A stretch of 64,000 nucleotides of DNA from Ignavibacteriaceae bacterium (GCA_019638025.1 JAHBUO010000008.1:1-64000); one strand, 5' to 3'. Shown: positions 33,170 through 57,364, numbered from the stretch's first letter. Notes: generated by a model from the letters alone, not told the origin. A program made the numbers and translations.

Positions 33170-36100
33170 TTATGTACTCTCATTATTTTCTTTATAAATT
33201 GGTAATTTAATTTTAAATGTAGTTCCTATTCCGAATTTGCTTTCTACACTTATTGTACCGCCTTGTCTATTAATCATTTCTTTACACAATAATAAACCAA
33301 GTCCGGTACCTTCCTCCAACGCAGTCCCTTTTGTAGAATGGTGAAGTTCAATATTAAAAAGCTTATTCAGATCTTCTTCGCGGATTCCAACTCCGTCATC
33401 TTCAATTGAAAGGATGTGAAAACCTTCTTCTTGTTCCGATAAAAACTTAATTGTTCCATTAGAATTAGAAAACTTAATCGCGTTTGAAAGTAAATTCATA
33501 ATAACCGAATGGAGCATATTATCATCAGCATGCACAAATGCCGTAGGAGAAATTAAGTTAAGAACGGTTATGTTTTTATTATCAGCATTCACTTTTAATA
33601 AATTTATAGAGTCGTTTACTTTTTCACGTAAACTTATCATTAAAGGTAGAAACTCAAATCGCCCAAGTTGAAGTCTTGACCAACTCAGCAAATTAGATAA
33701 AAATGTAAAAGTGTTCTTGGAGATTTCTTTAATATATGACAAGTATTCCTTAATCTCATCACGTTCAAGTTCATCATAAGAATCATTTAATATTTCAGAA
33801 TATCCGAGGAGTCCTTGAAACGGACTCTTTAGATCATGTGCAACAATTGAGAAAAATTTGTCTTTAGCAGCATTATTTGCCCTAAGCTCATCTGAATACT
33901 TTTTAATCTCCTCTTCAATTTTTTTCCTCTCGGAGATTTCACAAAGAAGAGCATCATTAATTCGTTTTAACTCAATAGTTCTTTCTTCTACCGTTTTTTC
34001 TAAAAGCTTGTTTGACTCTTCAATAACAGAAACTCTTTTTCGATACGAATAATAAATTGAAATGACTATCAAAGTAACAACAATTAGAAAAAACCACCAA
34101 GTTCGCCATATCGGAGGTTTTACAATCAGATTGATTTCTAATGGGTTGGCTGACCAGACTCCATCATTATTTGAACCAATAACTCTAAAAACATAATTGC
34201 CGGGAGCTAGATTTGAAACTGTCACCGAGCGCTCATTTTTTAGAGGAATCCAATAAGTAGTAATTCCCTCCACCATATATTTATACTGGTTTCTTCCGGG
34301 AGAAGTGAAATCCAATGAGGCAAATTCAAATCCAATAATTCTATCATCATAACTAAGTTCAATTGTTTTTGTTGAATAGATTGAGCCTTCAAACAACTTT
34401 CTACCATCTCTTGTGATACCACTTTTTACACTTACCCCACTCAATTTGAAATCTGTTAAACTTATTTGCGGAGTTGTAGTGTTTTTCACGATATCTTTAG
34501 CAAAAAAGGAGTTGTATCCATTTATACCACCAAAGTATAGTTTGTTTTGTTTGTTCTTATAATAGGCATTAGTATTGAATTCATTATCTTGTAACCCATC
34601 AGTAACGGTAAAATTTTCAAAACTCAAATCGGCATAATTGAATTTGGATAAGCCATAATTTGTGCTAAGCCAGAGATTCCCAAATTCATCTTCAAGAATT
34701 CCATAGATTACATCATTAGGCAAACCATCGCCTTGATAAAATGTCTCAAATTCATTCGATAAGTAGTCAAACCGATTTAAGCCGTTACGAGTACCAAGCC
34801 ATAATCTGTTTTTTGAATCCATCATAATTGATTTTATTGAGTTACTACTTATAGAACTTGACGAACTTCTAAAGTTCTTGACTACTTTTTTGTCTCTTTT
34901 ATTAATTTGAAATAGCCCCATGTTTTCAGTACCAACCCAAAGATTACCGTATGAGTCTTCGAACAAAGCAGTTACTTGTGATTGATTTGTATTCTTCTCT
35001 AATGGATTACCTAACTTAACTACTTCAATATTTTTTGTTTTAGTGTGATAGACTAATAATCCCAGATGAGACCCAATCCAGAGTAAATTTTCATTATCCA
35101 TATATAATGTGGATACAAAGTGTCCATATTGCGGAGAGTAATTATCTATGTTAAGATTTATAGACTTAAACTCTTTTGTTCTTTTATCGAATTGAACTAA
35201 CCCACCCCCTTCGCTGCCTAACCACAATTTAGTTTGATCAGTTAAATCCGGATAGATTGTATAGATGTTATCATTTCCGATTCTGTCACCTCCTCTATTC
35301 CAGTAATGTGTTTGATGTTTTTGCGATTTGGAATTGTATTCAACAAGTCCATGATATCCACCAATCCACACAGTGCCACTTTCATCTTCATAAAAACACC
35401 TTATACTCGAAAGCTCCATTCCTCCTTTCTGGAAGTAAACCGGATTAAATTTATATGAATATTGATTGAGTAATGAAATCCCCTTTCCGTTAGAACCAAT
35501 CCAAATAATTCCTGACCTATCTCGGAGAATTGATTGAAGCACATTCGTAGATATTGATGTTAAATCAGAAGGATTATTTTTATGAAAAATTAAATTTTGA
35601 GAGGTAACATCGAATTGAATTAGTCCATCTCCACGTGTCGCGACATACAAATACTTATCATCATATGCAATTCCTGTGCAAAAAATATAGGCATTTTTAG
35701 GACCTAGTTTTTTATATGAGTGAGTTACGGTATTTAGAATACCAAAACCACCTCCGTTTGTAATATATAAATTGCCATTCGGAGCTTCTGCTATTCCTGA
35801 TATGAAATCAACCATGAGTGGATAAATAGGGTCATTTGAGTTATAGTATCTATCGAACTTATTACGAGAATTATTGAATTTGTATATACCGAGCCCTGAT
35901 GAACCGCCCCAAATGTTCCCTCTAGAATCTTGAAATAAAACTCTCATCAAATAGGAATCGGAAAAATATTCTGGTTGAAACGATTGATATTTGTGAGAAA
36001 ATATGTTGAATGCTAATATATGATTTGATATGCTAATCCAAAGGAGAGAGTCATTTCTACTATCTTTAATGATAGAATAAACTGACTTACTATTTAAGGA

Positions 36101-36460
36101 ATCATCTTCAAACGAAAAACTTCCAAGAGTATCATAGTCATAATTATAATAAGATAGACCCGTCTTAGTTCCAATCCAGATATTTCCAAAAGCATCTTCA
36201 CAAATTGATTCAATCCAATTATTAGTTAATACAGGTCTTTGTGGATTACTTGTACGAAAGACTTCAAAATTATAACCATCGAATCTATTTAAACCGTCTT
36301 GAGTTCCTACCCAAATAAAACCTCTGCTGTCTTGCAACATGCATCGTATAGAGCCTTGAGACAACCCTTTAACATCAAGTTTATCAAATTTTATCGGTTT
36401 AACTTGCGCAATAATGGGTAATGCAAGACTAATAATCACTATTATAATTCTGATGTACAT
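33170..36460 (-). CDS. Two-component propeller sensor histidine kinase
   Basis: Periplasm-sensing kinase of 1,096 aa. Signal peptide (1-19), then about ten to fourteen repeats of the regulator-propeller type, each with a W.GT or WIG.. .GL core (for example GFIWVGTQDGLNRFDGY, LWLGTRNGLNRFDY), making two seven-bladed propellers. A Y_Y_Y domain (RNQYKYMVEG..W..L) follows, then one transmembrane helix (WWFFLIVVTLIVISIYY), a coiled coil, HisKA with SIVAHDLKSPFQGLLGYSE, and HATPase_c with NLLSNAIKF, DDGVGI and GTGLGLLL. It lacks the AraC and receiver domains of classic hybrid systems. Its downstream cupin neighbour may be linked. Confidence 0.93.
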   Translation of the reverse strand: MYIRIIIVIISLALPIIAQVKPIKFDKLDVKGLSQGSIRCMLQDSRGFIWVGTQDGLNRFDGYNFEVFRTSNPQRPVLTNNWIESICEDAFGNIWIGTKTGLSYYNYDYDTLGSFSFEDDSLNSKSVYSIIKDSRNDSLLWISISNHILAFNIFSHKYQSFQPEYFSDSYLMRVLFQDSRGNIWGGSSGLGIYKFNNSRNKFDRYYNSNDPIYPLMVDFISGIAEAPNGNLYITNGGGFGILNTVTHSYKKLGPKNAYIFCTGIAYDDKYLYVATRGDGLIQFDVTSQNLIFHKNNPSDLTSISTNVLQSILRDRSGIIWIGSNGKGISLLNQYSYKFNPVYFQKGGMELSSIRCFYEDESGTVWIGGYHGLVEYNSKSQKHQTHYWNRGGDRIGNDNIYTIYPDLTDQTKLWLGSEGGGLVQFDKRTKEFKSINLNIDNYSPQYGHFVSTLYMDNENLLWIGSHLGLLVYHTKTKNIEVVKLGNPLEKNTNQSQVTALFEDSYGNLWVGTENMGLFQINKRDKKVVKNFRSSSSSISSNSIKSIMMDSKNRLWLGTRNGLNRFDYLSNEFETFYQGDGLPNDVIYGILEDEFGNLWLSTNYGLSKFNYADLSFENFTVTDGLQDNEFNTNAYYKNKQNKLYFGGINGYNSFFAKDIVKNTTTPQISLTDFKLSGVSVKSGITRDGRKLFEGSIYSTKTIELSYDDRIIGFEFASLDFTSPGRNQYKYMVEGITTYWIPLKNERSVTVSNLAPGNYVFRVIGSNNDGVWSANPLEINLIVKPPIWRTWWFFLIVVTLIVISIYYSYRKRVSVIEESNKLLEKTVEERTIELKRINDALLCEISERKKIEEEIKKYSDELRANNAAKDKFFSIVAHDLKSPFQGLLGYSEILNDSYDELERDEIKEYLSYIKEISKNTFTFLSNLLSWSRLQLGRFEFLPLMISLREKVNDSINLLKVNADNKNITVLNLISPTAFVHADDNMLHSVIMNLLSNAIKFSNSNGTIKFLSEQEEGFHILSIEDDGVGIREEDLNKLFNIELHHSTKGTALEEGTGLGLLLCKEMINRQGGTISVESKFGIGTTFKIKLPIYKENNEST

Positions 36461-36605: not shown

Positions 36606-38435
36606 TTAGTATTTTCTGAGTTTACTCTGACTTCGAGTTACTAAAGAGTTATTGTTGTAATCATATCCATCAAATTTGAAACGATTCACTATTCCATGCA
36701 ATTGAACCATCAAATTATTTAAATCTTCAGCTGCTCTGGCAATCTCTTGAATACCTTGAGCAGTTTCATTTGTAACCGTACTAATAGATTCAATATTTTT
36801 ACTTATTTGCTCACTCGTGGTACTTTGTTCTTCACTGGCTGCAGCGACTTGATCAATTTCAAGAGCAACATGCTGTGCACTTTCAAAAATGCTCTTCAAC
36901 GCTAATTCAACTTCATCGTTAAGTTTATTACCTATATCGACAGATTGTTTAGCTTCAATCATAGACTCATTAGCTTTTTTCGTTTCACTTTGAATATCTT
37001 TAATTGTATTTGCAATTTCTTTTGTCGCTTTGGTAGTTCTTTCCGCAAGTTTACGAACTTCATCTGCTACAACTGCAAATCCTCTTCCATGCTCACCTGC
37101 TCGTGCAGCTTCAATTGCGGCATTGAGAGCCAACAAGTTTGTTTGGTCTGCGATATCATCGATAACTTGCGCAATTTCACCAATTTGATCTGTCTTGTCA
37201 GCTAAACTTGCAATTATCTGAGCGGTGTATTGGGCAGATTTGATTATTCTCTGCATTCCATCTTTAGCTTCACCAATTTTATTAACACCGTTTTGAGCCG
37301 AATTACTTGAGGTTTTAGCATTCTGTGATGCTTGGCTTGCATTCTTAGAAGTTTCATAAATTGTCTTAGTCATCTCTTCAACAGCTACAGCAATTTCACC
37401 GGTTTGCGAACTCTGCTCATTCGCACCTGCAGCTATCTCTTCGGTCGCTGATGAAATTTGATTAGCTGATCGAGTAGTAGAAATAACTGAATCAGAAACT
37501 TGCTTTAGCAAACTCCCCATATTTTTTACTGTTTTATTAAAACCTGCATACAACTGCCCAATTTCATCATCGCCTTTTACAGGAATTTCTAAAGCTAGGT
37601 CACCATCAGCAACTTTTTCCATTTCAGATAACAAAAACTTAACACTATCAGAAAGATATTTTTTCTGTTCTTCACTCGCTTTTACCGCATCTTCAACTTT
37701 TCTCTCAACGGATTTCTTCTCTTCTTCGAGTTGGCAATTAGCGCTTGAAATATTCTCAATCATTTTGTTAAATGCTAAAGTAAGGTCACCAACTTCATCA
37801 TCAGAATTTTTTTCAAGAGTAACATGTAAGTTCCCTTCACTTGCTTCTCGAGCTGCATCTCTTAGACTAGTTACATTTCGTGAAATTTTATTAAAGATGA
37901 AAAGGATTAAAACTACACCCATTACTATAATTACTAAACTCAAAAGAACTGATGTAATAATTCCATTCCGAATTTGTTCAGATACCTGGTCCATCGAGTA
38001 TTTCATTACAATTCGACCAAAGTGCTTTCCCTTATATTCAATGTCAACGGAATTGTTATAAGAGTTATCATCTTCTTCAAACCCAAACTTCACAATTGAT
38101 TTCCCATCAATTTTTAGATTGCTCGGGTTATGTTCAATTAAGACCTCGTTATTATCATCTATTATTGCTGTATATGTTACATTAGCGTCTTTCTTAATCC
38201 ATTCAAAGGCAGTTTGCACTAAGTCAAAATTGCTGTCATTCAGTCCTGCACCTACAGAAAAGGCAAGCATTTCGCCGAGTGTTTTAATTTGTGTTTCTGT
38301 ATATCCTATGCTCTGATCTTTTTGCAATTTGGGAAAGTAGACGAGCACAAAAGCCATAATTAAAATCAAAGGTATTAGAAATGCTGAGATTCCTTTGTTT
38401 CGAATTGATTTTGTTATAAGTTTTTTGAGTTCCAT
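36606..38435 (-). CDS. Methyl-accepting chemotaxis protein
   Basis: Transmembrane chemoreceptor of 609 aa. Two membrane helices (about residues 17-34 and 161-185) flank a periplasmic sensor of about 125 residues with the sequence features of a small PAS/Cache-like domain. A HAMP domain and a second HAMP-like segment follow, then the signalling hairpin with the tip [31 protein letters not shown]. No C-terminal NWETF-type docking pentapeptide is present. It should report to CheA/CheW elsewhere. It is downstream of the porin cassettes, separated by a hairpin, and on the same strand. Confidence 0.95.
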
Positions 38436-38469
38436 GTTTAATCCGTTTTTTCTTTGTATTCTTTTTTCG

Positions 38470-38497
38470 ATAGTGGAGAAAAAATTATCTCCACTAT
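38470..38497. terminator. Hairpin between chemoreceptor and porin cassettes
   Basis: Perfect ten-base stem ATAGTGGAGA/TCTCCACTAT with an 8-base A/T loop, followed by TTTT on the plus strand. It lies in the 125-base gap between the mini-PBP gene and the chemoreceptor gene. The T tail is in the wrong orientation for a classic minus-strand terminator, so it may only be partial. Confidence 0.5.
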
Positions 38498-38560
38498 TTT
38501 CTTAATACTATTATCGTTGATTTTTGACCTATTATACATTCCCCATTAAGGTTATTTTTA

Positions 38561-38968
38561 CTACTTCAATTCAAGTAGAACGTTAACACTTGGGTTTACA
38601 CTACTCGACTTTACATATCCAATAGCTCCAGGAGTTGAAGATACTTTAGCAATTACATCTGCATCGCTACCTAAAACCAGAGGGGCTTTTGCTTCACCAG
38701 TTAATTGTTTTTTCATCCATTCTTTCTTCAGCGTTAGTAAATCTTTACCTATTCCCTTATAAAATGAGGAACTTGCTTCGCTGCTATTATCAAATACAAC
38801 TACTTTACTACCATTAGACCATTTAGTTGCATCAAGTGAATAGATTAATGCTACTTTTTGTGCGTTTGCTGATTCAGTTACTGATTTATTCACAACCACA
38901 CTAACTTGTGCAATAGAAACTATATTTATCCCCGCAACAAAAGCAATTATTAATAGTATATTTTTCAT
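38561..38968 (-). CDS. Mini PstS-like periplasmic binding protein, copy B
   Basis: Periplasmic protein of 135 aa with a signal peptide (cleavage after SIAQ). The mature part resembles just one lobe of a PstS-type (PBP-like) fold: NKSVTE..., W..G.KVVVFDNS.EASSSFYKGIG, LKKEWMKKQLTG and KVSSTPGAIGYVKSSSV. Full PstS proteins exceed 300 residues, so this is a minimal single-domain form and no ABC transporter genes are nearby. It is followed by a chemoreceptor and preceded by a porin-like gene, 10 bases apart. Ligand unknown; phosphate or another oxyanion is an inference. Confidence 0.75.
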   Translation of the reverse strand: MKNILLIIAFVAGINIVSIAQVSVVVNKSVTESANAQKVALIYSLDATKWSNGSKVVVFDNSSEASSSFYKGIGKDLLTLKKEWMKKQLTGEAKAPLVLGSDADVIAKVSSTPGAIGYVKSSSVNPSVNVLLELK

Positions 38969-38978
38969 TTTCTACTCC

Positions 38979-40145
38979 TTAAAATAAAACGCTAACAGCG
39001 ATTTGATAAGATTTATAATCAATATCTACATTTGTATTTACTGCCGGAATATTCGGATTAATTACTACATCGAAAGAACTTTTCGCATAGTATGCTGCAT
39101 AGCTTCCTTTAATAACTACTGATTCCAATGGTTTGAAACCCATACCAAAGATTAACCCCTTCATGCCTGAATTAAGGATATTATCATTTTCATCTTTCAA
39201 ATAACTGTATGAACCATATGCAAACAGATCATCAGTAATATTGTAACCTAAGGTTCCATAATAAAATAATTTGTTCTGATTCTTTGTTGAGTTCTTTGGT
39301 TTAAGATTTACCGCGATGTATTCAGCATCAAAAAAGAAATTGTATAATGAATAACCTAAATCAAATGCAAATCTTGTACGACTTACATCTTCTTGTATTG
39401 TTGCTTGTTGATTATCTTTATCGGAAGTAAAAGAAACACCAAAACGAAGATCACTATACTTTGCACCTACTCTTCCACCAAACAGTTTGAAATTAGTAGT
39501 ATCAACGCTTGTTCCACCGGTTGCACCACTTCCTGAGATATAACTATTTTCTGAAGGACCTGCAAATACTGCATAATCAAATGTGATATCACTAACCGGT
39601 ATATAACCATAAGCTTGAACAAAAGCACGTTCCGGAACGAAGTGCGAATAGTTAATAGTTTTATTTGATGACTCATATACGAGTGGTCGAGTTATATACG
39701 GCAACAAAGGCATTCTGTTTTTAATCTCATTGAGATAAGCGAATCGTGGAATTAAAAGACCTGCTTTTACATTAAAAGCATTATTCATCTGATAATTAAC
39801 CCATGCTTCTTCTAGGCTGAACGAACCCCAAGAGTTACCACTATTATAACTGCCTAGAATTTCGAAATTCACCCACGCTGTAAACTTTTCATTTAATTCT
39901 TTTCTGAAGAATAAATTTAATTGTTGAATCGATGGGTTTGTATAGTCATCTTTTTTCTCAGATAATACTAACTTGCCTGTGGGATTTACCATAGCCGGAA
40001 CATCTGCAATTGCTGAATATCCCCCTTTGAGTTTTGAAACGGACCCTTGGAAAAATCCAAATACCTGAAGGTCACTCTGTGCAAAATTAGATTGTGACAT
40101 TAATGCCATAATTAAGACGAATAGAACTGTTTTTGTTTTTTTCAT
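38979..40145 (-). CDS. Porin-like outer membrane beta-barrel protein, copy B
   Basis: A 388-aa exported protein with a signal peptide (MALMSQSNFAQ) and a mature chain made of alternating beta strands ending in IAVSVLF, with the C-terminal Phe typical of barrels. The mature start LQVFGFFQGSVSK parallels LQVFGFTQAYYT of the second copy, and several strands (NLFFRKELNEKFTAWVNFE) align, so the two are paralogs. Likely an outer membrane channel with no established substrate. It lies 10 bases upstream of a mini-PBP gene. Confidence 0.8.
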   Translation of the reverse strand: MKKTKTVLFVLIMALMSQSNFAQSDLQVFGFFQGSVSKLKGGYSAIADVPAMVNPTGKLVLSEKKDDYTNPSIQQLNLFFRKELNEKFTAWVNFEILGSYNSGNSWGSFSLEEAWVNYQMNNAFNVKAGLLIPRFAYLNEIKNRMPLLPYITRPLVYESSNKTINYSHFVPERAFVQAYGYIPVSDITFDYAVFAGPSENSYISGSGATGGTSVDTTNFKLFGGRVGAKYSDLRFGVSFTSDKDNQQATIQEDVSRTRFAFDLGYSLYNFFFDAEYIAVNLKPKNSTKNQNKLFYYGTLGYNITDDLFAYGSYSYLKDENDNILNSGMKGLIFGMGFKPLESVVIKGSYAAYYAKSSFDVVINPNIPAVNTNVDIDYKSYQIAVSVLF

Positions 40146-40168
40146 GTTTTCCTCAAGTTTATTTCATT

Positions 40169-40582
40169 TTATTTAATTTCGAGTAAGACTTTTACATTGG
40201 AATTAACTTTATCTGCTGAGATAAATCCAATAGCACCTGCTGTTGAACTAACTTTTGATAAAACATCATCCTCTGAAGATACCGGTTCAGGAGGTGTACT
40301 CCCGCCTGTTAGTTTTGCCTTAAGCCATTGCTTCTTAAGATCCCCATTGTTTTCCCCGATGCCCTTTAAGAAAGTTGATAAGGTACTTCCCTCATTAGTT
40401 AAGAAATAAAGCCTAACTTTCTGTGAATTTAACTCACTTGATTGAAGTGTGTATAAGTTTTTCAATTGTGCTATCGAAACTGAATTTGCAGATACCCCTT
40501 TATTTGCAATTATTGCAACTTGAGCATAGATATTTGGAATTGTTAAACTTAATAGGATTGCTAATAAATACATTTTTTTCAT
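40169..40582 (-). CDS. Mini PstS-like periplasmic binding protein, copy A
   Basis: Paralog of the 38561-38968 product, 137 aa with a signal peptide (cleavage after IYAQ). Same layout: VAIIANKGVS, FLKGIGENNGDLKKQWLKAKLTG and KVSSTAGAIGFIS. Together with the porin-like gene 10 bases upstream it forms the first of two tandem cassettes. The spacing and repeated order suggest duplication of a porin + mini-PBP unit. Ligand unknown. Confidence 0.75.
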   Translation of the reverse strand: MKKMYLLAILLSLTIPNIYAQVAIIANKGVSANSVSIAQLKNLYTLQSSELNSQKVRLYFLTNEGSTLSTFLKGIGENNGDLKKQWLKAKLTGGSTPPEPVSSEDDVLSKVSSTAGAIGFISADKVNSNVKVLLEIK

Positions 40583-40592
40583 TTTTTACTCC

Positions 40593-41801
40593 TTAAAACA
40601 TTATGCTTGCGCCAATTGAAAAATTATGTTCTCTGAAATCACGAACCGGATCAGCAACGGTTCCCACATCATACTTGGCAAAGTTTAGGATGTACTGCGC
40701 TTTAAGAACAATATTATCATTCAAATTATATCCACCACCGACATGAATTCCGTAATAACCTTCTAACCCAAAAAAGAAAGGATCGACTTTATCAGTTAAA
40801 TAATCGTACATGGTGTACGCAAACAGTTTCTCTGTGATATTGTATTGAAGGAGGACATAGTAAAATTCCTTATCGAAACTATTCCCGATATAATACGGGT
40901 CAGCATTATTCCATGCATTAAGTGAATCTTGAATATCGCTAGTAACTTTTGAAGAAACTTTTAAGTATTCACCTTTAAGATTGAAGCCGGCAAAGTTGAA
41001 ATCAAAATCGAAACCTAGTCTTGTGCGTGGTAAATCACCTAAGTCAACTTCATTACCATTGACATCTGAAATAAATCCTCGTTTGTTATCTTTGTCTGCA
41101 CTTACTGAAACACCAACATTAAATCCACCATAGTTAAATCCTAAGCGTCCACCGAGCCCAACATAATTAACAGCTGATTGTCCATATGATACATATCCCG
41201 GAATCAAATCGTTATTGGGAGAAGAGATGAATTTGTTAACCGGATTTGTTAAAAAAGCAGAATACTCTATACTTGCTTTTTCAAGAGGAAACGTTCCATT
41301 GATATGCAACAAAGCTTTTTGAGGAAGTATATCGAAAATATCAACCAAGTTTTCCATATTTACTTCATACAATTTTGGGCGAACTAAGAATGGCATTAAT
41401 GGAGTTTTATTATAAACCTGGTAAAGTCCATTGAACTGCGGTATAACTGAACCAAACTTCACTTTAAGATAATCAGGTCCGTCCCATTTAAAGTAAGCTT
41501 CTTGCAGGTTAAAGGAGCCGAATCCTTTACTGCTTGAATAGTTATTTGTAAGTTCAAAATTGATAAAAGCCGAAAAATCATCTCCAAAATTATTATTGAA
41601 TAATAAATTTAACTGCCCGATACCCATGTGATTATATTTATAATCTTCCTCTCCTGCAGGCGGTGCAGGTGTCCAAGTATTTGAAAAACTTGTATAGTAT
41701 GCTTGGGTAAAACCAAAAACTTGCAGACCGTCTTGGGCGAACCCTAATCCGGGAAGTGCAGTAAAAACTGCAAGTAAAAATAACACTTTAATTTTGTTCA
41801 T
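40593..41801 (-). CDS. Porin-like outer membrane beta-barrel protein, copy A
   Basis: Paralog of the 38979 gene; about 402 aa from the ATG at 41801, chosen because it has GAGGATAAA just upstream and starts a regular signal peptide (VLFLLAVFTALPGLGFAQ). The mature beta-strand pattern is similar: LNLLFNNNFGDDFSAFINFE, and ends NFSIGASIMF with terminal Phe. The gene follows the receiver-kinase gene by 57 bases. Likely outer membrane channel for a ligand shared with the mini-PBP partner; no family name can be given safely. Confidence 0.8.
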   Translation of the reverse strand: MNKIKVLFLLAVFTALPGLGFAQDGLQVFGFTQAYYTSFSNTWTPAPPAGEEDYKYNHMGIGQLNLLFNNNFGDDFSAFINFELTNNYSSSKGFGSFNLQEAYFKWDGPDYLKVKFGSVIPQFNGLYQVYNKTPLMPFLVRPKLYEVNMENLVDIFDILPQKALLHINGTFPLEKASIEYSAFLTNPVNKFISSPNNDLIPGYVSYGQSAVNYVGLGGRLGFNYGGFNVGVSVSADKDNKRGFISDVNGNEVDLGDLPRTRLGFDFDFNFAGFNLKGEYLKVSSKVTSDIQDSLNAWNNADPYYIGNSFDKEFYYVLLQYNITEKLFAYTMYDYLTDKVDPFFFGLEGYYGIHVGGGYNLNDNIVLKAQYILNFAKYDVGTVADPVRDFREHNFSIGASIMF

Positions 41802-41857
41802 TTTATCCTCATGTTTTTTTATTGTAAACATCCCCTAAGAATGCTCGATTATTTTAA

Positions 41858-43147
41858 TTAATATGTCTTTTGATTTAAGTTCTTGTTCTTCTGAACGAAA
41901 TTTTCAACTTCTTGTTCTGATACTTCTTCTACTTTCTTTTCCGTTCCATTGAAAACAAATTGAATTCTTGTCCCTTTTTCCTTTTCACTGTTTACGAATA
42001 TCAGAACATTGTTCAGATCGCAATAACCTTTTGTTAAGGCCATTCCCAAGCCATTGCCTTCGTAATCTCTTGTGTAGCCTGTATGCTCTTGTGAAAAGGG
42101 ACTGAATAATCTTGTATTGATAAATTCAGAACTCATTCCAACACCTCGATCTTCGATTTCTAAGAGTAAATGTCCTTGTACATTTTTAGTTACTGAAATC
42201 TTGATGGGTTTATTCCCGGAGAATTTGTAGGCATTATCTATTGTATTCAACAAAATTTGAAGCAGTGAGTATTCATCGATTTTAATGTTAACCGATTTAT
42301 CTTCGCACACTAATTCAGTAATTCGATTTGGATAGATATGGGATAGTTGAATAAGAGCTTCTTTAATTAAGTCGTGAACGTTGACTTCCACAGGTTCTAA
42401 AGTGTAGTTACGAGTAATTAATTCAGACATTCTGATGATTAATTCTATTGTGCGGATTAATCTACGACTTCCTTTGTTAATTGCTTCGAAACCATTTTTT
42501 AGTAGTTCACTGGATTCAAAATCAATTTCCATTGAGATTAAATCGAGATAAGAAAGAATTGCATTTAACGGTGTTCTTATTTCGTGGGAAATTTGTCCGA
42601 GGAATTCATTTTTTAGTGTATTTGCCTGCTCAAGTTCTTTTTTTGCAACTTCGAGTTCGGAGATAGTCTCAAACAATTGACGAGTTCTTTTTCTTACTAA
42701 CTTCTCTAAATCCTGTTTATAAGTTTTGTTTTCTTTTATAAGAAAAGCTTTTTCTAAAGCACGTAAAACACTCATCTCTAATTCTTCAAAATGCAGAATT
42801 GGTTTAGATACATATTCCCATGCACCTAAATTCATAGAGCGAATAGCTTCTTTGATAATTCCTGTTCCCGATACAACTACAATAGGAACATCAGGATAGT
42901 TTCGTGAAATGTGAGAAATTACTCCATGTCCACCCATCCCCGGCATATTTAAATCAACTAACACTATTTCTGGATTAATCAATTTAAATTTTTCAAGTCC
43001 CTCTTCACCACTTTTAGCTGTTGTAACTAAACAGTTTAAATCTTCAAAAAAATACTTAATGCTTTTCGATAATGATTCATCATCATCAATCACTAACATT
43101 TTTGTGTTTGATAGATTATAATAACTGTTGACTTTTATTTGCTCCAC
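41858..43147 (-). CDS. Receiver-histidine kinase fusion protein
   Basis: Cytoplasmic protein of 429 aa without transmembrane segments. An N-terminal receiver domain (VIDDDESLSKS, phospho-Asp in VLVDLNMPGM, conserved Lys in SKPILHFEE) is followed by a coiled coil, HisKA with SHEIRTPLNAILSYLDL, and HATPase_c with NTIDNAYKF, DRGVGM and GNGLGMALT. The input is therefore phosphorylation of its own receiver, so it would accept phosphate from another kinase or be controlled by it. It is the last kinase in the operon, just before the porin cassettes and 103 bases after the NarL-type gene. Confidence 0.92.
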   Translation of the reverse strand: MEQIKVNSYYNLSNTKMLVIDDDESLSKSIKYFFEDLNCLVTTAKSGEEGLEKFKLINPEIVLVDLNMPGMGGHGVISHISRNYPDVPIVVVSGTGIIKEAIRSMNLGAWEYVSKPILHFEELEMSVLRALEKAFLIKENKTYKQDLEKLVRKRTRQLFETISELEVAKKELEQANTLKNEFLGQISHEIRTPLNAILSYLDLISMEIDFESSELLKNGFEAINKGSRRLIRTIELIIRMSELITRNYTLEPVEVNVHDLIKEALIQLSHIYPNRITELVCEDKSVNIKIDEYSLLQILLNTIDNAYKFSGNKPIKISVTKNVQGHLLLEIEDRGVGMSSEFINTRLFSPFSQEHTGYTRDYEGNGLGMALTKGYCDLNNVLIFVNSEKEKGTRIQFVFNGTEKKVEEVSEQEVENFVQKNKNLNQKTY

Positions 43148-43250
43148 TTGAACCTCGAGTATTTAAATTCTTACGGTTCAAATATTACATATAAGTGTAC
43201 AGGAATAAATTCCTCAAGTGGGATAATTTTGGGTACTAAATTGGGTTAGT

Positions 43251-48700: not shown

Positions 48701-49345
48701 AAAGTTCTTATCGAAGGTTACAATCCCTTTTTTGAAAACTGCCAATACAAGATTTCCATCTCGGTCGACTTTCATATCTTTTATCGAACTTACTGCCGGA
48801 TAAGTTATTACTTGTTCAACCAAACCGTTGTTATATCTGAATAATCCATCTTCTGAACAAATGAGGATTCCATATTCTTTTGCATCATAAATTTTGCTTA
48901 TTGTATTTGAGTTTACACTTTTGCCGACTTTAATATTTTTGAACAGACCATTTTTAAAAAGGAAGACTCCATATCCATTGGAGCTAATTAATAATTCACC
49001 GGGATTTATTTCTATTACTGAAGTAAAATGCTCTCCGGTTAATTCACGATTTGTTGTCAAATTGTAAGTAGTAAAAGTTAAACCATCATACTGAACAAGC
49101 CCTTGAATTGTTGTTAACCAAATAAATCCATTCTCTGATTGAAAGATACTGGTTACATAACTTGAGGGGAGATTATCCTTAAGTTCCCAAGATTGATGAA
49201 CACGTCCAAAGAAAGGGTCTCTATAGCGCCTACCATGTTGTGAGAAAATAGTTGAAGTTAAGAAACTAAATTGCAGAAGAATAATTAGTATGAAGAGTTG
49301 CAGCTTCATTTTTGAAATATTAACTAACCAAAATTTAAATTGCAT
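45794..49345 (-). CDS. Propeller sensor kinase with PAS domain
   Basis: A 1,183-aa sensor kinase. If started at the ATG at 49309 it begins with a signal peptide (KLQLFILIILLQFSF); the ATG at 49345 adds 12 residues. Two sets of propeller repeats (NYWIGTVGAGLYKFD, VVWIGTSGGGLSKRQ) and a Y_Y_Y domain fill the periplasmic part, then one membrane helix (FWFRIIILLALGFFVFLFV). A cytoplasmic PAS (YIQYVIDSIDTAIISID) leads to HisKA with GLAAGMAHEINNPLGTI and HATPase_c (NLIKNAVQAF, DNGPGI, GTGLGL). The cytoplasmic module is shared with the two kinases upstream. No receiver is attached. Confidence 0.94.
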   Translation of the reverse strand: MQFKFWLVNISKMKLQLFILIILLQFSFLTSTIFSQHGRRYRDPFFGRVHQSWELKDNLPSSYVTSIFQSENGFIWLTTIQGLVQYDGLTFTTYNLTTNRELTGEHFTSVIEINPGELLISSNGYGVFLFKNGLFKNIKVGKSVNSNTISKIYDAKEYGILICSEDGLFRYNNGLVEQVITYPAVSSIKDMKVDRDGNLVLAVFKKGIVTFDKNFNIISERSLLIDEFKNPTSVYFDEKWNLWISTLNDLFYVSKGSPRKVFSGNQITKIEPGISGYLFVTSDDGLISVNQETQTSTVYKNFSDRRVLSTFISKEDIIWVGTYNGLNSFRKSFINSISTDFGLGTNHVRAVYEDKDSNYWIGTVGAGLYKFDNRSRILSSYSNLLKFKDIYSIYEDNDKTIWIASNNAFAKLKEGKIEVFSLGKSSGSAIRVITKNPISNELVLGTSNGEILSFNGKELKEIYKTDVNKDFIFSIVYADSIAYIATARGLFVVDGRMNTKHYSINQGLSVNSIRTIYKDDDGVVWIGTSGGGLSKRQNGRIYNYTIQDGLLSKYVWSIVEDNNNNFWLTSDEGISVINKNDIYLYDQKKIDKIPALMFGQLDGMIDPECNTGHNVGFRSSNKKIWFAGMGGVVIFHPDSLINSITPTPVYIRGISIDSKFYPPAESIEIPAGSTNIEVNFSTLNFGNNSHLNFRYKILESNDEWIYTNKRSTIYLSNLNPGEYTLIIQADNGQEKWDLSEVKLTLIQLPKFYQTFWFRIIILLALGFFVFLFVKWRLKSLNAKNIELLSLIQNKVVAEEKLKDAFTYIQYVIDSIDTAIISIDENGNVTHSNKSADKFKNQSSNINSNDLWTLFPKLQFVEVYLKEAMNKREPKTYPQLIYIEQSIIQYFSLSIFPMEKSYQGGYVILIDDVSEQTKLQEVMIQSEKMLSVAGLAAGMAHEINNPLGTIVQGCQNILRRISFNLQRNVDIAEGIGINVAKIEEYFQKRQINDIVESMRVAASKASDIIKNMLQFSRRSESKMVEADIVQLINNTIELACSDFDLKKKFDIRSFEIVKEIDENLPLIPLTVTEMEQVLFNLIKNAVQAFKPNDKKTPKLVIRAYELNKFVKIEVEDNGPGIPDNVKSRIFEPFFTTKDVGEGTGLGLSVSYMIITNNHNGRLSVESTEGIGAKFIIELPLQKRD

Positions 49346-49351: not shown

Positions 49352-52300
49352 TCAATTCATTCTCTTCTTTTGGATAGGAAGTTTTATTATAAATTTTGTG
49401 CCTAATCCTAGTTTTGATTCACAGTATAATTCGCCTTGATGATTATCTCTAATAATCATATATGAAACTGATAAACCGAGCCCTGTTCCTTCTCCAACAT
49501 CTTTTGTTGTAAAAAATGGTTCGAATATGCGGTTCTTAACTTTTTCAGGTATGCCTGGCCCGTTATCTTCTATTTCAATGCGCACAAACCTATCTTCTTT
49601 TGCAGCTCGAATTATTAATTTAGGACGTTTTTGTGAATCATGTTCATTAGCTATCGCTTGTGCCGCATTCTTTATGATATTGAATAAGACTTGTTCAATT
49701 TCAGTAATAGTGATGCTCAAAACAGGTAAATTGTGTTCTATTTCTTTCAATACTTCAAAAGATCTGAAATCATAACGCTTCTTTAAATCATAATCGTTAT
49801 AAGCTAATTCGATTGATTCATCAATTATTTTTGATAATTGGGCTTCAACTTTTTTTGATTCACTTCTTCTACTAAACTGAAGCATATTTTTAATGATATC
49901 AGAAGCTTTCCCTGCTGCCGTACGCATTGAATCAATTATATCGAATATTTGTCTTTCTTTAAAATAATCTTCAAATTTTTTAATATCGACCCCAAGATTC
50001 TCTGCTGTCTCAACATTCTTAGGAATATTTGAAGAAACTCTTCGCATAATATTTTGACAACCTTGCACAATTGTACCAAGCGGGTTGTTAATTTCGTGCG
50101 CCATGCCGGCTGCGAGTCCGGCAACTGTTATCATTTTTTCGGATTGAATCATCATTTCAGAAAATCGAGTTTTTTCGGTTGTATCTTCAACCATGATTAC
50201 AAAATCGTTATCAATGCTACTCTTTAATGGAAATATTGCAATTGAATAATAATGTGTGTCTGAATTCTCATCAATAACCATTCTTGAATTCATGACTGAA
50301 TCATTTTCGGTCATAGCCATATCAATATCTTCCCTTATGAACTTTAATTTCGGAAAAACTTCAAAAATGGGACCTGATTTAACTGATGAATCAATGCGAA
50401 AAGATTCAGCAGCTTTGTTAAAATGTGTAATTATTAAATCGCTATTAAAAGAAATAATTGAAGTTGTAATTGAATCAACTACATATTGGATATACTCAAA
50501 CGCACTTTTAAGCTTTTGTTCAGCATTTCGGATTTGTGTTATATCTTTGATTGTTGTTAACGTTGCAAGCTTTTTGTTAAAGTTAATCACTATTGATGAA
50601 AATAATGAAACATGACTGCTTCCATCCGGATTAGAATATTCGATTTCATAATTATCCACTTGTCCATCTCGTTCAAAAACTTCCCTTAACCTTTGTTCCA
50701 TAACGTCATCTAAAAAGTACATTGAGGTTTTCCCTACAACTTCTTCTCGAGTTCTTCCGGTTAATTCTGTGTAAGCTTTATTTACCTCAGCAATAATTGA
50801 ATTCCCCACATAAGTTATTACTTGAGGGATTGGAGATTTTCTAAAAATAGTATTAAAATTTTCTGAACTCTGATTAATTTCCTCTAACGCTTGCATCCGT
50901 AGCGTTATATCTTTTACAGCTCCGAGCATTCTGATGGGGACTTTATTCTCATTTTCAATCACAATTCCTGTATCTTCGATATAAACTATCTCACCGGTTT
51001 TTCTAACTATACGATATTGTGTAGAGTAGTTCCCTCCTTTTCTTATTGCACTTTCAAAAAATTCTGAAGTGGGTTCTTTGTCATCAGTATGGAGAATACT
51101 TTCCCACCTATTTTGACTATCAGTTAAAAATTCGTTTTCATGATAACCGGTTATACTTTCAATTGGACCTGACCAAATTACTTCCCGGTTTGATAAATCG
51201 ATATCATATACGAGTTGCCCGGTCTGTTCTATTGTAAGTCGATATCTTGCTTCACTTTCTTGAAGTAGATTTTTAGCTATTACCTCCTCATTCACATCTC
51301 GTATAAAAACAACAATCCCTTTTATTGCTGGAGTATCGAAGTGATTTTTCCCTTGAGCATCAACATATATACTAGCTCCATTTTTTTTCTTTGCTCTAAA
51401 GAGAGTTGGGACTCCGTCATTTTCTTTATTAATAATTGTAATTAATTCGCTCTTCATGAATTCAACATCATCTTCATTCATAAATGAAAAAGCATTTTTA
51501 CCTATCATCTCATCCGGTGTATAGCCAAATATTTTTTCGCATGAAGGGCTAACATAAGTAAGTGTAGCATTTGCATCGATGATAACTATTCCATCATTTA
51601 AGCCATGAACAATATTTCTGAATTTGTCCTCACTGAGAATTAATTGCTGCTTAATTTTATATTCATTACTTATATCTGTTGCAATTCCTAAATATCCTGT
51701 AATCTCTCCGTTTGCAGCCTTAACTGATGTTACAACTAAATTCACCCTTACTTCGTTACCGTCTTTCCTAATATAAGTACACTCGAATGTATCGCTCCCC
51801 GATAGTCTGGCTACGTGTATGAGAGATTCAAAATCATTTACCTCAGAATTATATTTTACCTTTATCTCTTTAACTTTTTCTTTGAGTTCTTCAGATTTGT
51901 GGAAGAGAACCGGTGAGAATTTATTAATTACCTCTGAGCCGTTATAACCTATTAATTTTTCGGCACCGGAATTAAATATTTTTATAATCCCGGATTTATC
52001 CGTTGCAATAATTGATACTTCTGATGCTGCCTCCAGAACATTTTGAAGTTCAGCTTTTGCAATCCTAATTTCCTCTTCTGCTTTCTTCGATTCTGAAACA
52101 TCTATTACAATACCTCTGAGTCCAACCGGTTTTTTGTTCTCAATTATCGGAGAAGAATAAATTAAAATTGGGAAAACGGTCCCGTCTTTTTTAACTCCGA
52201 GATAATCATTCCCTCCACTCACTTTACCATTTAAAATACTTTTAATATTTTCTTTAGCCTTTTGTTTTGAAGATTCATGTAAAACATCAAATACATTTAG

Positions 52301-55072
52301 TCCTTCTCTAAAGTTTATATCATCGAAGCCGAAAATTTTAAAACTTGATTTATTAAGGAATGTAAACCTTCCACTCAAATCGGTCTCAAAAACAGTTTGT
52401 GGAAGCAAATCAGTCATTTCTCGATACTTTTTCTCACTCTCACGCAGTGCCTCTTCAGCAGCCTTTCTCAGTGTTAAGTCTCTCCAAGTGACATGTATTA
52501 ATTCTTCACCTTTTATAGAAATTGGTGCTAGAGCAACTTCAACAAAAAATTCATTGAATTGATTATCAATATGAACCCATTCAAACAGATGGTTCCCATT
52601 TCGTAATGCAATATTAATCATCTCAACTGCTTTCTCGGATGAGAGTCTACCGTCGGGTTGATATTCAGGGCTCAATTCAAATGGTGTTTTCCCGATAAGT
52701 GATTTTTTATCTTCATAACCTAAGATTGAAAGAGCCGCCCTATTGTATTCAATAAATTTGCCATCTTTTAAAAGTATAATCGGGTCAAAAGAATCATCAA
52801 AAAGTTTTTTGAATCTTTCTTCGCTCTCATGCAGTGCTTCTTCAGATTTCTTTTTAATGATGGCTGAGGAGATGTGATTAGTTAGTACTGCTAATATTTC
52901 AACATCCACTTCTGAAAAGTTTTTATCTGAATTTGTTTTTTTAAGAATTAAAATTCCGAGTTGATTACTATCAAGCTGAAAAGTTGTTCCTAAAATACTA
53001 TTGATGGGAATTTTTGTGTTAAGTGTTGGGAATAATAATGATAAATCATCTTTGGAAAATATTTTCGGTACTCTCTCCTCGATTAACTTTTTAGCCAGCA
53101 ACTCATCAAAATCTGTAAAACTTGCTTCATAATTATCAGACATTAAAATTTCGAGATTACCATTTACGCTGTCATAGAGTGTTAGCAACAAACTATCGGA
53201 AATGAATAATTCCGCAAGAATCAACTTAAGTTTGTTAATTAGGTCGGTTAATGAATCAGATACAATTGAGGAATTATCTATTTCACGAATAACAGACTGA
53301 AGGAGTTCATTTTTTTTACGCTCATCAATATCTGAGTGAGTTCCAATCATTCGCAAAGGTTTACCGGATTCGTCTCTTTCTAAAACTTTGCCTCTTGCAA
53401 GAATCCATTTGTATTTTCCATCTTTACATCGAAGTCGGTGTTCAATTTCATAATTTGAGGAATTGGATGAAAAATGCTTTTCAATATGGGTGAAAACTCT
53501 ATGCATATCCTCCGGATGGAGTTTGTTCTGCCATTCCTCGAAATTATTCTGAATTTCATCATCCTCATAGCCAATCATCTTTTTCCATTGGGGAGAAAAA
53601 TAGACTTCATTAGTTCTTATATTCCAATCCCAAACTCCATCGCTTGCTGCTTCAAAAGCTAACTTTAAGCGTTCTTCATTTTCTCTTAATTCGATTTCTA
53701 TACTTTTTCTGAGTTCTATTTCGTCTTCAAGATTTTTGGTTGTCGATTTAATTTTACTAGATAAATCGTTGAACGAATTAGCAAGGAGTTTAAATTCATA
53801 ATAAAACTCATCCTCCCTAAGTCGGACATTATAATTACCATCTCCAAATTTTTCGAGGGCTTCTGACAATACGGAAAGGGGTCTCTTAATAAAGAACCAA
53901 ACACTAATTATTAGTACTATCGATATTACTAAGATACCGAATATTAGTTTATTATAAACCGAAGTTTCAAAAGAAGCTACAAGACTATTAACTCTCTCGG
54001 TATTTGAACTAAATATGATAAAGTAGGGGTTGCCATCCAGACTTAATTGAGAAAAGCCGTAACTAACCTTATTATCAATGTCAATAAAAATTCCTTCATT
54101 CTGATTAATTAGTTCATCGATTAGTGAAACACCGTAATAATCTTTTGCGGATTTTTTTAGAACTTCTTCCTTCGGAGGGATATAAAAATCCCCATTTTTA
54201 TCCAGAACAGCGAAACTACCTTTGAATGTATTTTTAGCCTTATCAAAAAATATATTTGCTTCATGAAGTGAAGAGTTATCAAACCTATATCTATACTCCG
54301 AAGCCATATTTTTTTTGATGATTGCTTCGTGCTCGAGAATAGATTTTGCTACAGTATTCTTAATTGATACTCCCAAAAACAATATTGGAATTATTGCTAA
54401 TAAAATAAACCACAATACCAATCGGATTGCTAAAAAATTTTTAAGAATCGGGGCGGCAGCGAAAAATTTATCAACTGACGAATTCTTCATGTTTTGGGGT
54501 GATATTGAGATTCCCCACAACGGTTTGTTGTATTTAGCCGGTAATGCAATTAGAATTAAAGAAGTAATAAATGAAGTAATTAGAAATTCGGGTATCCATC
54601 CTTTATAAATTTTTATCAATGCAGGGAAAAATTCATGGTTACCTTTGACAATAAGGTTATAGAACTCAGGGAATGCAAAATATACTGATGCAAATAATGG
54701 AATATAAAAAATGAAGTAATATGAGAAAATAAGGAGTATCCAAGCAGGGATTAGTAATAATATAGATAGTTTCCCATAAATATATTTCTTATAACAATAA
54801 GCAACTAATACAGCTCCGATTATATGCTGAAGGATGATATAAATAACTAATTCACCTGTTGGGTCATATATTGATGAAAGTATTGAGATGATTACTGCAC
54901 CAATAGGACCCGTAAGAGCAGCGCCTATTGTTACTAATATTTCACGAGGATCAGTAAGAAGATTTGTCCCGGGAATTGTAAAATATATCTTAGCATATAT
55001 TAGTACAAAAGCAAAACAACCTAGAATAACTGATACAATAAGTGCCTTACGGTTAATTAGATTTGATGACAT
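49352..55072 (-). CDS. Giant multi-PAS sensor kinase with 5TM-type N-terminus
   Basis: About 1,906 aa from the ATG at 55072 (the TTG at 55078 lies just upstream). Order: five or six transmembrane helices resembling the LytS-type 5TM receptor (1-185), a second helix (about 215-235), an extracellular segment of about 140 residues, a third helix (about 375), HAMP, then PAS 1, a GAF-like domain, PAS 2-8, and finally HisKA with GLAAGMAHEINNPLGTI and HATPase_c (IIKNAAQAI, DNGPGI, GTGLGL). PAS 8 (AFEYIQYVVDSI) belongs to the module shared with its neighbours. Such stacks are typical of redox or ligand integration; specific ligands are unknown. Confidence 0.93.
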   Translation of the reverse strand: MSSNLINRKALIVSVILGCFAFVLIYAKIYFTIPGTNLLTDPREILVTIGAALTGPIGAVIISILSSIYDPTGELVIYIILQHIIGAVLVAYCYKKYIYGKLSILLLIPAWILLIFSYYFIFYIPLFASVYFAFPEFYNLIVKGNHEFFPALIKIYKGWIPEFLITSFITSLILIALPAKYNKPLWGISISPQNMKNSSVDKFFAAAPILKNFLAIRLVLWFILLAIIPILFLGVSIKNTVAKSILEHEAIIKKNMASEYRYRFDNSSLHEANIFFDKAKNTFKGSFAVLDKNGDFYIPPKEEVLKKSAKDYYGVSLIDELINQNEGIFIDIDNKVSYGFSQLSLDGNPYFIIFSSNTERVNSLVASFETSVYNKLIFGILVISIVLIISVWFFIKRPLSVLSEALEKFGDGNYNVRLREDEFYYEFKLLANSFNDLSSKIKSTTKNLEDEIELRKSIEIELRENEERLKLAFEAASDGVWDWNIRTNEVYFSPQWKKMIGYEDDEIQNNFEEWQNKLHPEDMHRVFTHIEKHFSSNSSNYEIEHRLRCKDGKYKWILARGKVLERDESGKPLRMIGTHSDIDERKKNELLQSVIREIDNSSIVSDSLTDLINKLKLILAELFISDSLLLTLYDSVNGNLEILMSDNYEASFTDFDELLAKKLIEERVPKIFSKDDLSLLFPTLNTKIPINSILGTTFQLDSNQLGILILKKTNSDKNFSEVDVEILAVLTNHISSAIIKKKSEEALHESEERFKKLFDDSFDPIILLKDGKFIEYNRAALSILGYEDKKSLIGKTPFELSPEYQPDGRLSSEKAVEMINIALRNGNHLFEWVHIDNQFNEFFVEVALAPISIKGEELIHVTWRDLTLRKAAEEALRESEKKYREMTDLLPQTVFETDLSGRFTFLNKSSFKIFGFDDINFREGLNVFDVLHESSKQKAKENIKSILNGKVSGGNDYLGVKKDGTVFPILIYSSPIIENKKPVGLRGIVIDVSESKKAEEEIRIAKAELQNVLEAASEVSIIATDKSGIIKIFNSGAEKLIGYNGSEVINKFSPVLFHKSEELKEKVKEIKVKYNSEVNDFESLIHVARLSGSDTFECTYIRKDGNEVRVNLVVTSVKAANGEITGYLGIATDISNEYKIKQQLILSEDKFRNIVHGLNDGIVIIDANATLTYVSPSCEKIFGYTPDEMIGKNAFSFMNEDDVEFMKSELITIINKENDGVPTLFRAKKKNGASIYVDAQGKNHFDTPAIKGIVVFIRDVNEEVIAKNLLQESEARYRLTIEQTGQLVYDIDLSNREVIWSGPIESITGYHENEFLTDSQNRWESILHTDDKEPTSEFFESAIRKGGNYSTQYRIVRKTGEIVYIEDTGIVIENENKVPIRMLGAVKDITLRMQALEEINQSSENFNTIFRKSPIPQVITYVGNSIIAEVNKAYTELTGRTREEVVGKTSMYFLDDVMEQRLREVFERDGQVDNYEIEYSNPDGSSHVSLFSSIVINFNKKLATLTTIKDITQIRNAEQKLKSAFEYIQYVVDSITTSIISFNSDLIITHFNKAAESFRIDSSVKSGPIFEVFPKLKFIREDIDMAMTENDSVMNSRMVIDENSDTHYYSIAIFPLKSSIDNDFVIMVEDTTEKTRFSEMMIQSEKMITVAGLAAGMAHEINNPLGTIVQGCQNIMRRVSSNIPKNVETAENLGVDIKKFEDYFKERQIFDIIDSMRTAAGKASDIIKNMLQFSRRSESKKVEAQLSKIIDESIELAYNDYDLKKRYDFRSFEVLKEIEHNLPVLSITITEIEQVLFNIIKNAAQAIANEHDSQKRPKLIIRAAKEDRFVRIEIEDNGPGIPEKVKNRIFEPFFTTKDVGEGTGLGLSVSYMIIRDNHQGELYCESKLGLGTKFIIKLPIQKKRMN

Positions 55073-55108
55073 ACTCAAAATAAATTGTATATTTTTTAAC
55101 TGAATTTT

Positions 55109-57364
55109 TTATTCGCTAAGAGGAATTCTAATCGAGAATTTAGTCCCTTTTCTTAATGTCGATTCCACAGTAATATTTCCTTTGTGATTTTTCGTTATAA
55201 TCATATAAGAAACAGATAAACCCAATCCGGTTCCTTCCCCAACTTCCTTTGTTGTGAAGAATGGTTCAAATATACGATTTTTAATTTCTTCAGGAATACC
55301 GGGGCCATTATCCTCAATTTCAATAACTAAATTATATCTCCCTCTTCTGACTCGTAAAATTATATGATAGTGCTTTTTCTTATCATTTTCTGATTTGATT
55401 GCTTGAGCTGCATTTTTTATTATGTTAAAAATCACTTGCTCTATTTCAGTAACATTCAATTTAACTTTGGGCAAATTATCTTCATATTCTTTGATAATAT
55501 TGATTGATTTGAAATCGATTCTCTTTTTCATATCGTAATCATTGTAAGCCAATTCAATAGCTTCATCAATTACTTCCGCGATGCTCATAAGTACTTGTTT
55601 TGATTCCGTTCTTCGACTAAACTGAAGCATATTTTTAATAATATCTGAAGCTTTTGCTGAAGCAACTCGCATTGAATCAATTATATCATATATTTGTCGT
55701 TCTTTAAAGTATTCAACCAAATTTTCTATGGTAACACCCATTTGATTAGCTACTTCGATATTTTTAGGTATTTCATTTGAAACCCTACGCAAGATGTTTT
55801 GGCACCCTTGAACAATTGTCCCAAGTGGATTATTTATTTCATGTGCCATACCTGCAGCTAATCCGGCTATTGTAAGCATCTTTTCGGATTGAATCATCAT
55901 GTCTTCCATTTTGACACGTTCAGTAATATTATCAATCATTATTACAAATCCGGGGTCAGTAATATTAGCTAGTGGAGAAACAGCAACTGAATAATATTCT
56001 ACTTCACCACCCGGTTGACCAACAGTTTTTTGTCTTGATAGATATGTACCAGAATCTCTCACTTCACTAAGTTCATCAGAGATAAAATTAAGTTTGGGAA
56101 ATAAAACAAACAAGTTTTGTTTAACAACGTGTTTATTCACCTTAAATTTTTCAGCTTCTTTATTGTAATGTTTGACGTTGAAATGACTATCAGTCGAGAT
56201 AATTACTGTAGCGATGGAATCTACCACATACTGAATATACTTGTATGCATCAGAAATTTCTATCTGACCCAAAATAATGTCTGTAATTTCTCTAGCAACC
56301 AGAGTAACACCCGCAAACTTCCCTTGTATATCTTTGCGAGGCGAAATTTTTGCACTCCAGAATGAATTTTCTTTTTCCATAGAAAGAGAAAAATCAAATG
56401 ATTCGACAGTTAGATTTTTTCTGACTAACTCAATTGAATTTTGTATTTGCATTACAATTTCAGAGTTGAGTATCTCATTAATAGAATACCCTATTATTTT
56501 TTCAGAGTTATTAAAGAATTTTTCGGGGTTAGGATAGTAATAACTGATACAATAATTATTATCATCTAATACAAGCACTAAATCATCCATTGATGATAGT
56601 GTTGATGTTAATAACTCCTCACTTTCCCTTAGGGCATTTGAAGTAGCTTTAATTTCTTCAGTCTTTAATAATTCTTCATCAAATAATCTTTGGTTTTCTA
56701 TTGTAACAGCAATATGATTTGCTCCGGTTTGAAGCTGTTGGATATCCTCATTTGAGAAGTTTTTTAATTTCGAAGTTGTATAGACCCCAAGAATTCCAAT
56801 AACGTTGTCTCTGATTAGCAATGGAACGCCGGCATAAGAAATAAATTGAAAATGTTTTCTATCTTTCTTAATCATTGATTTTGTAATGTCATCAGAAGTT
56901 ACATCTTCAATAATATAAGGACTACGAGTTTCTATAATTCTTTTTGAAATCCCAACATTACTCGGGAGTGACTGTGCTAAAAGGTCATAATCAATCCCCT
57001 CTGCAGCCAAAAGGTCCAAATTGTTTCCGGTTAATGTTCGAATAATGCAAGTATCAACTTCAAAAGCAGAAATAATTGATTTCATCATCTTTGAAACTGC
57101 ATTGTTCAGAGTTTCCTCACCAATAACAGAAGTTGTGATTTCATTAATCAGTTTAAGTCGCTTATTATAATATTTTAAAAGCTGTTCATTTTGCTTTAAT
57201 TCAGAAATGTCTGTCATAACTCCTATAGAGCCATAGACATTTCCATTTTTATCATACATTGGTGAACCCGAAACAAGAAAAGGTAAATACTCTCCTTTCT
57301 GAGTTTTAAAACTTATTTCATAATGAGAGAAAATACCGGTGGTTCTCTTATAACCCGACGTCAA
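55109..57364 (-). pseudogene. PAS-GAF-PAS sensor kinase, truncated at its N-terminus by the prophage
   Basis: The reading frame of 751 aa begins in the middle of a PAS domain: the first 60 residues match only its second half (FKTQKGEYLPFLVSGSPMYD, GVMTDISELKQNE), then a GAF (70-235), a PAS (250-365), the shared PAS (YIQYVVDSIATVIIS), HisKA GLAAGMAHEINNPLGTI and HATPase_c (IIKNAAQAI, GTGLGL). The only in-frame start is a TTG at 57364 with no Shine-Dalgarno sequence, and the frame closes a few codons further upstream within sequence that belongs to the prophage end. The missing 5' part may lie beyond the window. The kinase module may still be made from a new start, but sensing is lost. Confidence 0.8.

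Follow-up and report, generated by a model that had tools for sequence, protein, structure and literature searches.

Organization of the signaling gene block

The DNA analyzed here, referred to as the window, is a stretch of 64,000 nucleotides from an Ignavibacteriaceae bacterium (GCA_019638025.1, JAHBUO010000008.1:1-64000), whose genome (G000) comprises 3.7 Mb in 169 contigs. Positions 33170 to 57364 carried 14 genes, all on the minus strand, which were assigned by Pfam analysis or, for the second mini-PBP and porin pair, by paralogy (Table 1). As described in the original prediction for this region, these included six histidine kinases, one chemoreceptor (MCP), and two porin and mini-PBP cassettes (38561-41831); the NarL/LuxR-type regulator was the only protein with a DNA-binding domain, and two of the kinases, REC-HK and REC-HK3, had a receiver at the N-terminus. 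Whereas the prediction counted four receiver-type regulators and described most gaps as 4-base or shorter, we found three free-standing ones (RECa, RECb, and NarL) and such short gaps at only 4 of the 13 junctions (-4, -4, 0, and 1 nt, the remainder being 6, 10, 10, 23, 26, 30, 103, 125, and 145 nt). The 103-bp gap separated the relay genes from those for REC-HK, porin, mini-PBP, and MCP. As read from the sequences, all five receivers retained the Asp pocket and Lys, and the H-box His was intact in all six kinases. PropHK2, PASHK, and GAFHK (45794-57364) had a common kinase core, preceded in each by a different sensor region.

A cupin gene at 32849-33169 abuts PropHK1 with zero gap and may share its operon. 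There was also a strong hairpin (11 pairs, U-rich loop) at 38469-38498 in the gap between mini-PBP A and MCP, which is not a terminator for the operon because A's come next on the operon strand. Sigma70 and terminator scans gave counts equal to those for shuffled sequence and were uninformative, and there was no match in an Rfam search.

The end of the block at 57364 proved not to be natural. The GAFHK open reading frame lacks the first half of its PAS domain and starts directly at the end of a prophage (window 57365-57480; L042, contig 56501-72516). Three GTTTGAGAT sites lie at this end, of which two belong to a 22-bp repeat and one is inverted, and a DNA methyltransferase and then tail and head genes adjoin it. 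The layout of end sites, methyltransferase, and tail and head genes suggested that the prophage is a Mu-like transposable phage. A pattern search for prophage ends found the window end only and so did not lead to the missing part of the GAF kinase gene.

Table 1. Genes and candidate regulatory site of the block, in window coordinates
Feature	Position	Strand	Description
PropHK1	33170..36460	-	Two-component-propeller + Y_Y_Y + HisKA/HATPase sensor kinase (Pfam); outside conserved core, absent from L009/L012/L178 blocks
MCP	36606..38435	-	'S1' periplasmic sensor (about residues 38-158), HAMP, MCPsignal (Pfam); core; 52-58% identity to L009/L012
mini-PBP A	38561..38968	-	Secreted; predicted single lobe of PstS; core; PstS 1twy residues 101-217, E 2.6e-11
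porin A	38979..40145	-	Porin_O_P-like outer-membrane barrel; core; Pfam Porin_O_P 26.2 bits (cut-off 20.9); 49-58% to L009/L012
mini-PBP B	40169..40582	-	Paralogue of mini-PBP A (44%); window-specific duplicate; no own Pfam match
porin B	40593..41831	-	Paralogue of porin A (33%, alignment); window-specific duplicate; no Pfam match; 55% to L041 porin
REC-HK	41858..43147	-	Receiver + HisKA + HATPase, soluble (Pfam); core; 52-53% to L009/L012
Candidate operator ACTAACCCAATTTAGTACCCAAAATTATCC	43221..43250	-	In NarL/REC-HK gap; position and core TTTAGTACC shared by four genomes
NarL/LuxR-type response regulator	43251..43886	-	REC + GerE (Pfam); core; 55-59% to three genera
REC-HK3	43883..45031	-	Receiver + HisKA_3 + HATPase (Pfam); 4-nt overlap with NarL; core; 42-45% to three genera
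RECa	45028..45402	-	Single-domain receiver (Pfam); core; 44-45% to three genera
RECb	45404..45793	-	Single-domain receiver (Pfam), paralogue of RECa (43%); two RECs also in L009
PropHK2	45794..49345	-	Propeller sensor kinase (Pfam); kinase core in common with PASHK/GAFHK, last ~390 aa 53-59% identical
PASHK	49352..55078	-	Membrane multi-PAS kinase (Pfam); core; orthologous kinase in L009/L012/L178
GAFHK	55109..57364	-	PAS/GAF kinase, 5'-truncated by prophage; PAS_9 from profile position 60; phage end sites 57365-57395

A conserved core within the block

Among 164 genomes of the order, REC-HK3 homologues at E 1e-40 were found only in G000 and three others (G435, G459, and G018), and mini-PBP in 15, among them each of the three genomes whose REC-HK3 orthologue has the same architecture. 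Loci L009 (G459) and L012 (G435), which belong to two other genera, contained PAS-kinase, REC(s), REC-HK3, NarL, REC-HK, porin, mini-PBP, and MCP in this order, although the L009 contig contains just part of the PAS-kinase; from RECa to MCP, each of the seven genes showed 42-68% identity between the window and these loci. The block of G018 (L178), a third genus, consisted of REC, PAS-kinase, REC-HK3, NarL, a remnant of REC-HK reduced to its REC domain, and an MCP whose input is 4HB and poly-HAMP, and it had neither porin nor mini-PBP. In this MCP (L178 11579-15025), the 4HB input and five HAMP_2 matches stand in place of the porin/mini-PBP input, the relay being otherwise kept. A more distant version in G274 (L090) comprised PAS-kinase, REC, REC-HK3, NarL, and MCP beside a mini-PBP. 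The same-genus genome G001 lacked mini-PBP, the S1 sensor, and REC-HK3 alike, which shows that the block is dispensable.

The core, syntenic in other genera and missing in G001, is thus an accessory unit that has been inherited together. Added to this core are PropHK1, PropHK2, GAFHK, and the second pair of porin and mini-PBP. Co-conservation in relatives had been set beforehand as the test that could refute the grouping, and it was found for the core; synteny in other genera indicated that this grouping is more than chance. The suggestion of one integrated pathway therefore remained tenable for the core, which kept its order in two further genera and its relay and MCP in a third, with a shared DNA element upstream of the REC-HK/porin/mini-PBP/MCP unit, and it did not extend to the three additional kinases and the second porin/mini-PBP pair, which are absent from the relatives' blocks.

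The two-component relay and the chemoreceptor cassette might instead be separate operons, two or more in number, lying merely side by side in an accessory island. Such an arrangement would fit the 103-bp gap, which has a conserved element of its own, the unconserved PropHK1, PropHK2, and GAFHK, and the usual occurrence of the porin/mini-PBP/MCP trio without this relay, but the same order in three genera, the relay with MCP in a fourth, and the element that G018 shares before both its REC gene and its MCP gene argue against it, and we consider it improbable.

A candidate NarL operator

A ~30-bp element with the common core TTTAGTACC was found in the NarL/REC-HK gap of all four genomes (window, L009, L012, and L178). 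It reads AATACCCACTTTTAGTACCTCaaAATACCC in L009, L012, and L178 and takes the weaker form ACTAACCCAATTTAGTACCCAAAATTATCC in the window, and a second copy lies just upstream of the MCP gene in L178. The consensus heptamer of NarL is TACYYMT, which the TACC repeats of the element resemble, and the element is a probable NarL-RR site; its place upstream of the REC-HK/porin/mini-PBP/MCP unit would fit control by the neighboring NarL. In leave-one-out scoring, the L009, L012, and L178 sites gave 36-40 bits and the window site 14.2 bits (matrix from the other three), which was the best score in the 64 kb and lay below the 18.4 bits seen once in 1.22 Mb of the genome, the scan having covered 1.22 of the 3.7 Mb beyond the window. 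A matrix from all four sites gave a maximum of 17.6 bits in the sampled genome, compared with 33.6-46 for the sites. The window element is divergent, its leave-one-out score being lower than the best background score, and so was identified mainly by its position.

The mini-PBP as one lobe of PstS

Mini-PBP A and B are the sole copies in G000, and their nearest relatives were in Ignavibacteriales MAGs. The mini-PBP has 135 aa, compared with ~270-340 aa for the two-lobed PBP PstS. A profile built from 60 mini-PBP homologues aligned with PstS chains in a single region, residues ~101-217 (1twy, E 2.6e-11), and in a phylum search an 11-member mini-PBP profile weakly matched one part of full-length frames of ~270-340 aa belonging to one family. 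The AlphaFold2 model of mini-PBP A had a pLDDT of 91, and in a Foldseek search with this model PstS entries ranked first (E 5e-7, TMq 0.62-0.67, TMt 0.33-0.38). The restricted profile match, the confident model, and the PstS-first Foldseek result indicated that the mini-PBP corresponds to just one PstS lobe, lobe II by sequence and predicted fold. It is therefore like full-length PstS (PF12849) in lobe II and differs from it in the missing lobe I and in scores below the curated cut-offs (22.7 vs. 27 for PF12849 and 17.6 vs. 206.6 for TIGR02136).

The SGT phosphate-binding motif of lobe II was found in none of the 60 homologues, which makes it unlikely that the mini-PBP binds phosphate in the canonical way, though it may bind other ligands. 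The original prediction suggested that the mini-PBP catches a ligand entering by the porin, and named oxyanions for chemotaxis assays; such capture is conjectural, and no support was found for oxyanions specifically. A true solute-binding protein would nevertheless be in keeping with the PstS homology and with the match of one porin to Porin_O_P: the porin would admit a small anion, and the mini-PBP, perhaps as a lobe dimer, would bind it and stimulate the MCP, for which there is a precedent in phosphate chemotaxis, where loaded PstS stimulates the chemoreceptor CtpL (PMC4926252). We regard this as rather unlikely, since only one lobe is present, the SGT anion motif has been lost throughout, and there was no ABC transporter gene within the block. 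With one lobe only and no SGT motif in 60 homologues, a role as a periplasmic adaptor is at least as likely as ligand catching.

Porin and sensor genes near the mini-PBP

Neighborhoods were examined for 45 mini-PBP copies of Bacteroidota-group genomes and for a further 23 of Pseudomonadota and Acidobacteriota, with 91 ORFs located >6 kb away as controls. An adjacent same-strand porin, called with a profile iterated on these same loci, was present at 43/45 and 20/23 mini-PBPs, respectively, and at 0/91 controls. A same-strand MCP or histidine kinase lay within 3 kb of 34 of the 45 Bacteroidota-group copies (controls, 20/91), and by the profiles used there was none at the other 11. A large membrane protein followed the porin in most Pseudomonadota loci (Accumulibacter and relatives, Ferriphaselus, and Colwellia), and in the three loci examined (Accumulibacter L013, Ferriphaselus L021, and Colwellia L030) it was a dCache_3-GGDEF-EAL protein; an MCP was found at the mini-PBP locus of Pseudomonas peli and of one acidobacterium. 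The trio of porin, mini-PBP, and inner-membrane sensor thus occurred in three phyla with differing outputs. The relay was usually missing from loci with porin, mini-PBP, and MCP. At L103 (8789-11283), porin and mini-PBP were tandemly duplicated ahead of one MCP, as in the window. We found no account of the cassette in a literature search of the open text of PMC.

The window MCP had MCPsignal (PF00015, E 5.5e-49) and HAMP (PF00672, E 3e-23) domains, and CheB genes were present elsewhere in G000. The model of its S1 sensor (pLDDT 89) showed a long helix leading into a PAS-like sheet and was similar to WalK, CitA, and the periplasmic domain of the LapD-type CdgS9. A profile of S1 (~125 residues), seeded from MCP input domains only, also matched histidine kinases beside other mini-PBPs (E 1e-12 to 1e-32), the high scores near mini-PBPs being partly circular as the seeds came from such loci. 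S1 was fused to a HisKA_2 output in L084. At L107 (7930-9375), it was fused to a SpoIIE phosphatase adjoining porin and mini-PBP. S1 is not exclusive to mini-PBP loci, as it occurred without porin and mini-PBP at G190, G107, G285, G126, and G307:C38.

On the mini-PBP tree, the sensor class changed 3 times (shuffled mean 13.9) and the output class 9 times, 7 of them within S1. This suggested that the mini-PBP tracks the input domain and not the output, as expected for direct contact, the effect being indirect and partly phylogenetic.

An assignment of the sensor to CHASE8 (YfiN family) was considered but not adopted. The whole MCP matched NF053592 (E 1.8e-15), but the isolated sensor did not reproduce this match, which therefore comes mainly from the TM/HAMP part; among isolated sensors only one relative matched (E 0.0024). 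In a CHASE8 search, the window MCP gave no match, and the best relative (E 0.0011) was below the cut-off. These results bear on a further reading, an envelope-stress gauge similar to YfiBNR, in which the porin would sequester the half-PstS and free a repressed sensor with no solute involved. The three-compartment layout with outputs interchangeable as for YfiN (PMC3375315) and the resemblance of the sensor model to WalK and CdgS9 speak for such a gauge, but by sequence nothing links the block to YfiR or YfiB, its PstS-like periplasmic and porin-like outer-membrane proteins giving no YfiR or OmpA match, and the CHASE8 link is below threshold; we therefore find it doubtful.

Proposed mechanism and comparison with known systems

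In our judgment, the sensory core of the locus is real and conserved, and its periplasmic component is unusual; the surrounding block has grown by the addition of kinases and has been interrupted by a phage. From its gene content, the half-PstS and sensor folds, synteny, the cross-phylum porin association, and the conserved DNA element, we infer two linked modules, an envelope-sensing cassette (porin, half-PstS, and MCP) and a NarL feedback phospho-relay, with a probability of roughly 0.55. The cassette would combine an outer-membrane porin with a periplasmic half-PstS, most likely an adaptor, and a sensor in the inner membrane, which in this block is the MCP. In response to what passes through the porin or happens at it, the half-PstS would bind the periplasmic domain of the sensor and change the output of the receptor, which would be chemotaxis here and kinase activity or c-di-GMP elsewhere. 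In the relay, the membrane kinases with PAS or propeller inputs may phosphorylate the stand-alone receivers and those of REC-HK3 and REC-HK; REC-HK3 would then phosphorylate NarL, and NarL, by binding the conserved element upstream of REC-HK, would set the supply of REC-HK, porin, half-PstS, and MCP.

More tentatively, the half-PBP could be the dedicated adaptor of an undescribed cross-phylum tripartite cassette, linking a porin to exchangeable sensors (MCP, histidine kinase, GGDEF-EAL, and SpoIIE) and wired here to a self-supplying NarL feedback relay. If true, this would constitute a principle of porin-linked signaling from the outer to the inner membrane in at least three phyla, and would assign a role to the 'PstS-like' proteins of ~140 aa, a class that is common but has no name, and account for their siting beside porins. 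The locus would also allow a chemoreceptor apparently supplied under the control of a dedicated kinase relay to be studied in a compact setting.

The relay resembles NarX/NarL-type pairs of a HisKA_3 kinase and a LuxR-type response regulator in that REC-HK3 and NarL adjoin with a 4-nt overlap and the candidate site has TACC-type repeats, but REC-HK3 is soluble with an N-terminal receiver, so that it may itself be driven by phosphorylation. In the YfiB-YfiR-YfiN system, genes for outer-membrane, periplasmic, and inner-membrane sensor proteins lie together and the outputs are interchangeable (GGDEF, GGDEF-EAL, HPT, and HK) (PMC3375315, PMC4887326). The cassette shares with it the three-compartment gene set and exchangeable output, whereas its periplasmic part is half a PstS instead of YfiR, its outer-membrane part is a porin instead of an OmpA/Pal lipoprotein, and its sensor is not recognized as CHASE8 and has here a chemoreceptor output. 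The PstS-CtpL system likewise combines a PstS-related periplasmic protein with a chemoreceptor, but the cassette has only one lobe, has lost the phosphate motif, lacks a Pst transporter, and uses a dedicated gene adjoining porin and MCP. Because it departs from both on the features tested, the cassette appears to be like YfiBNR or PstS-CtpL in its logic and a member of neither the YfiBNR nor the PstS family.
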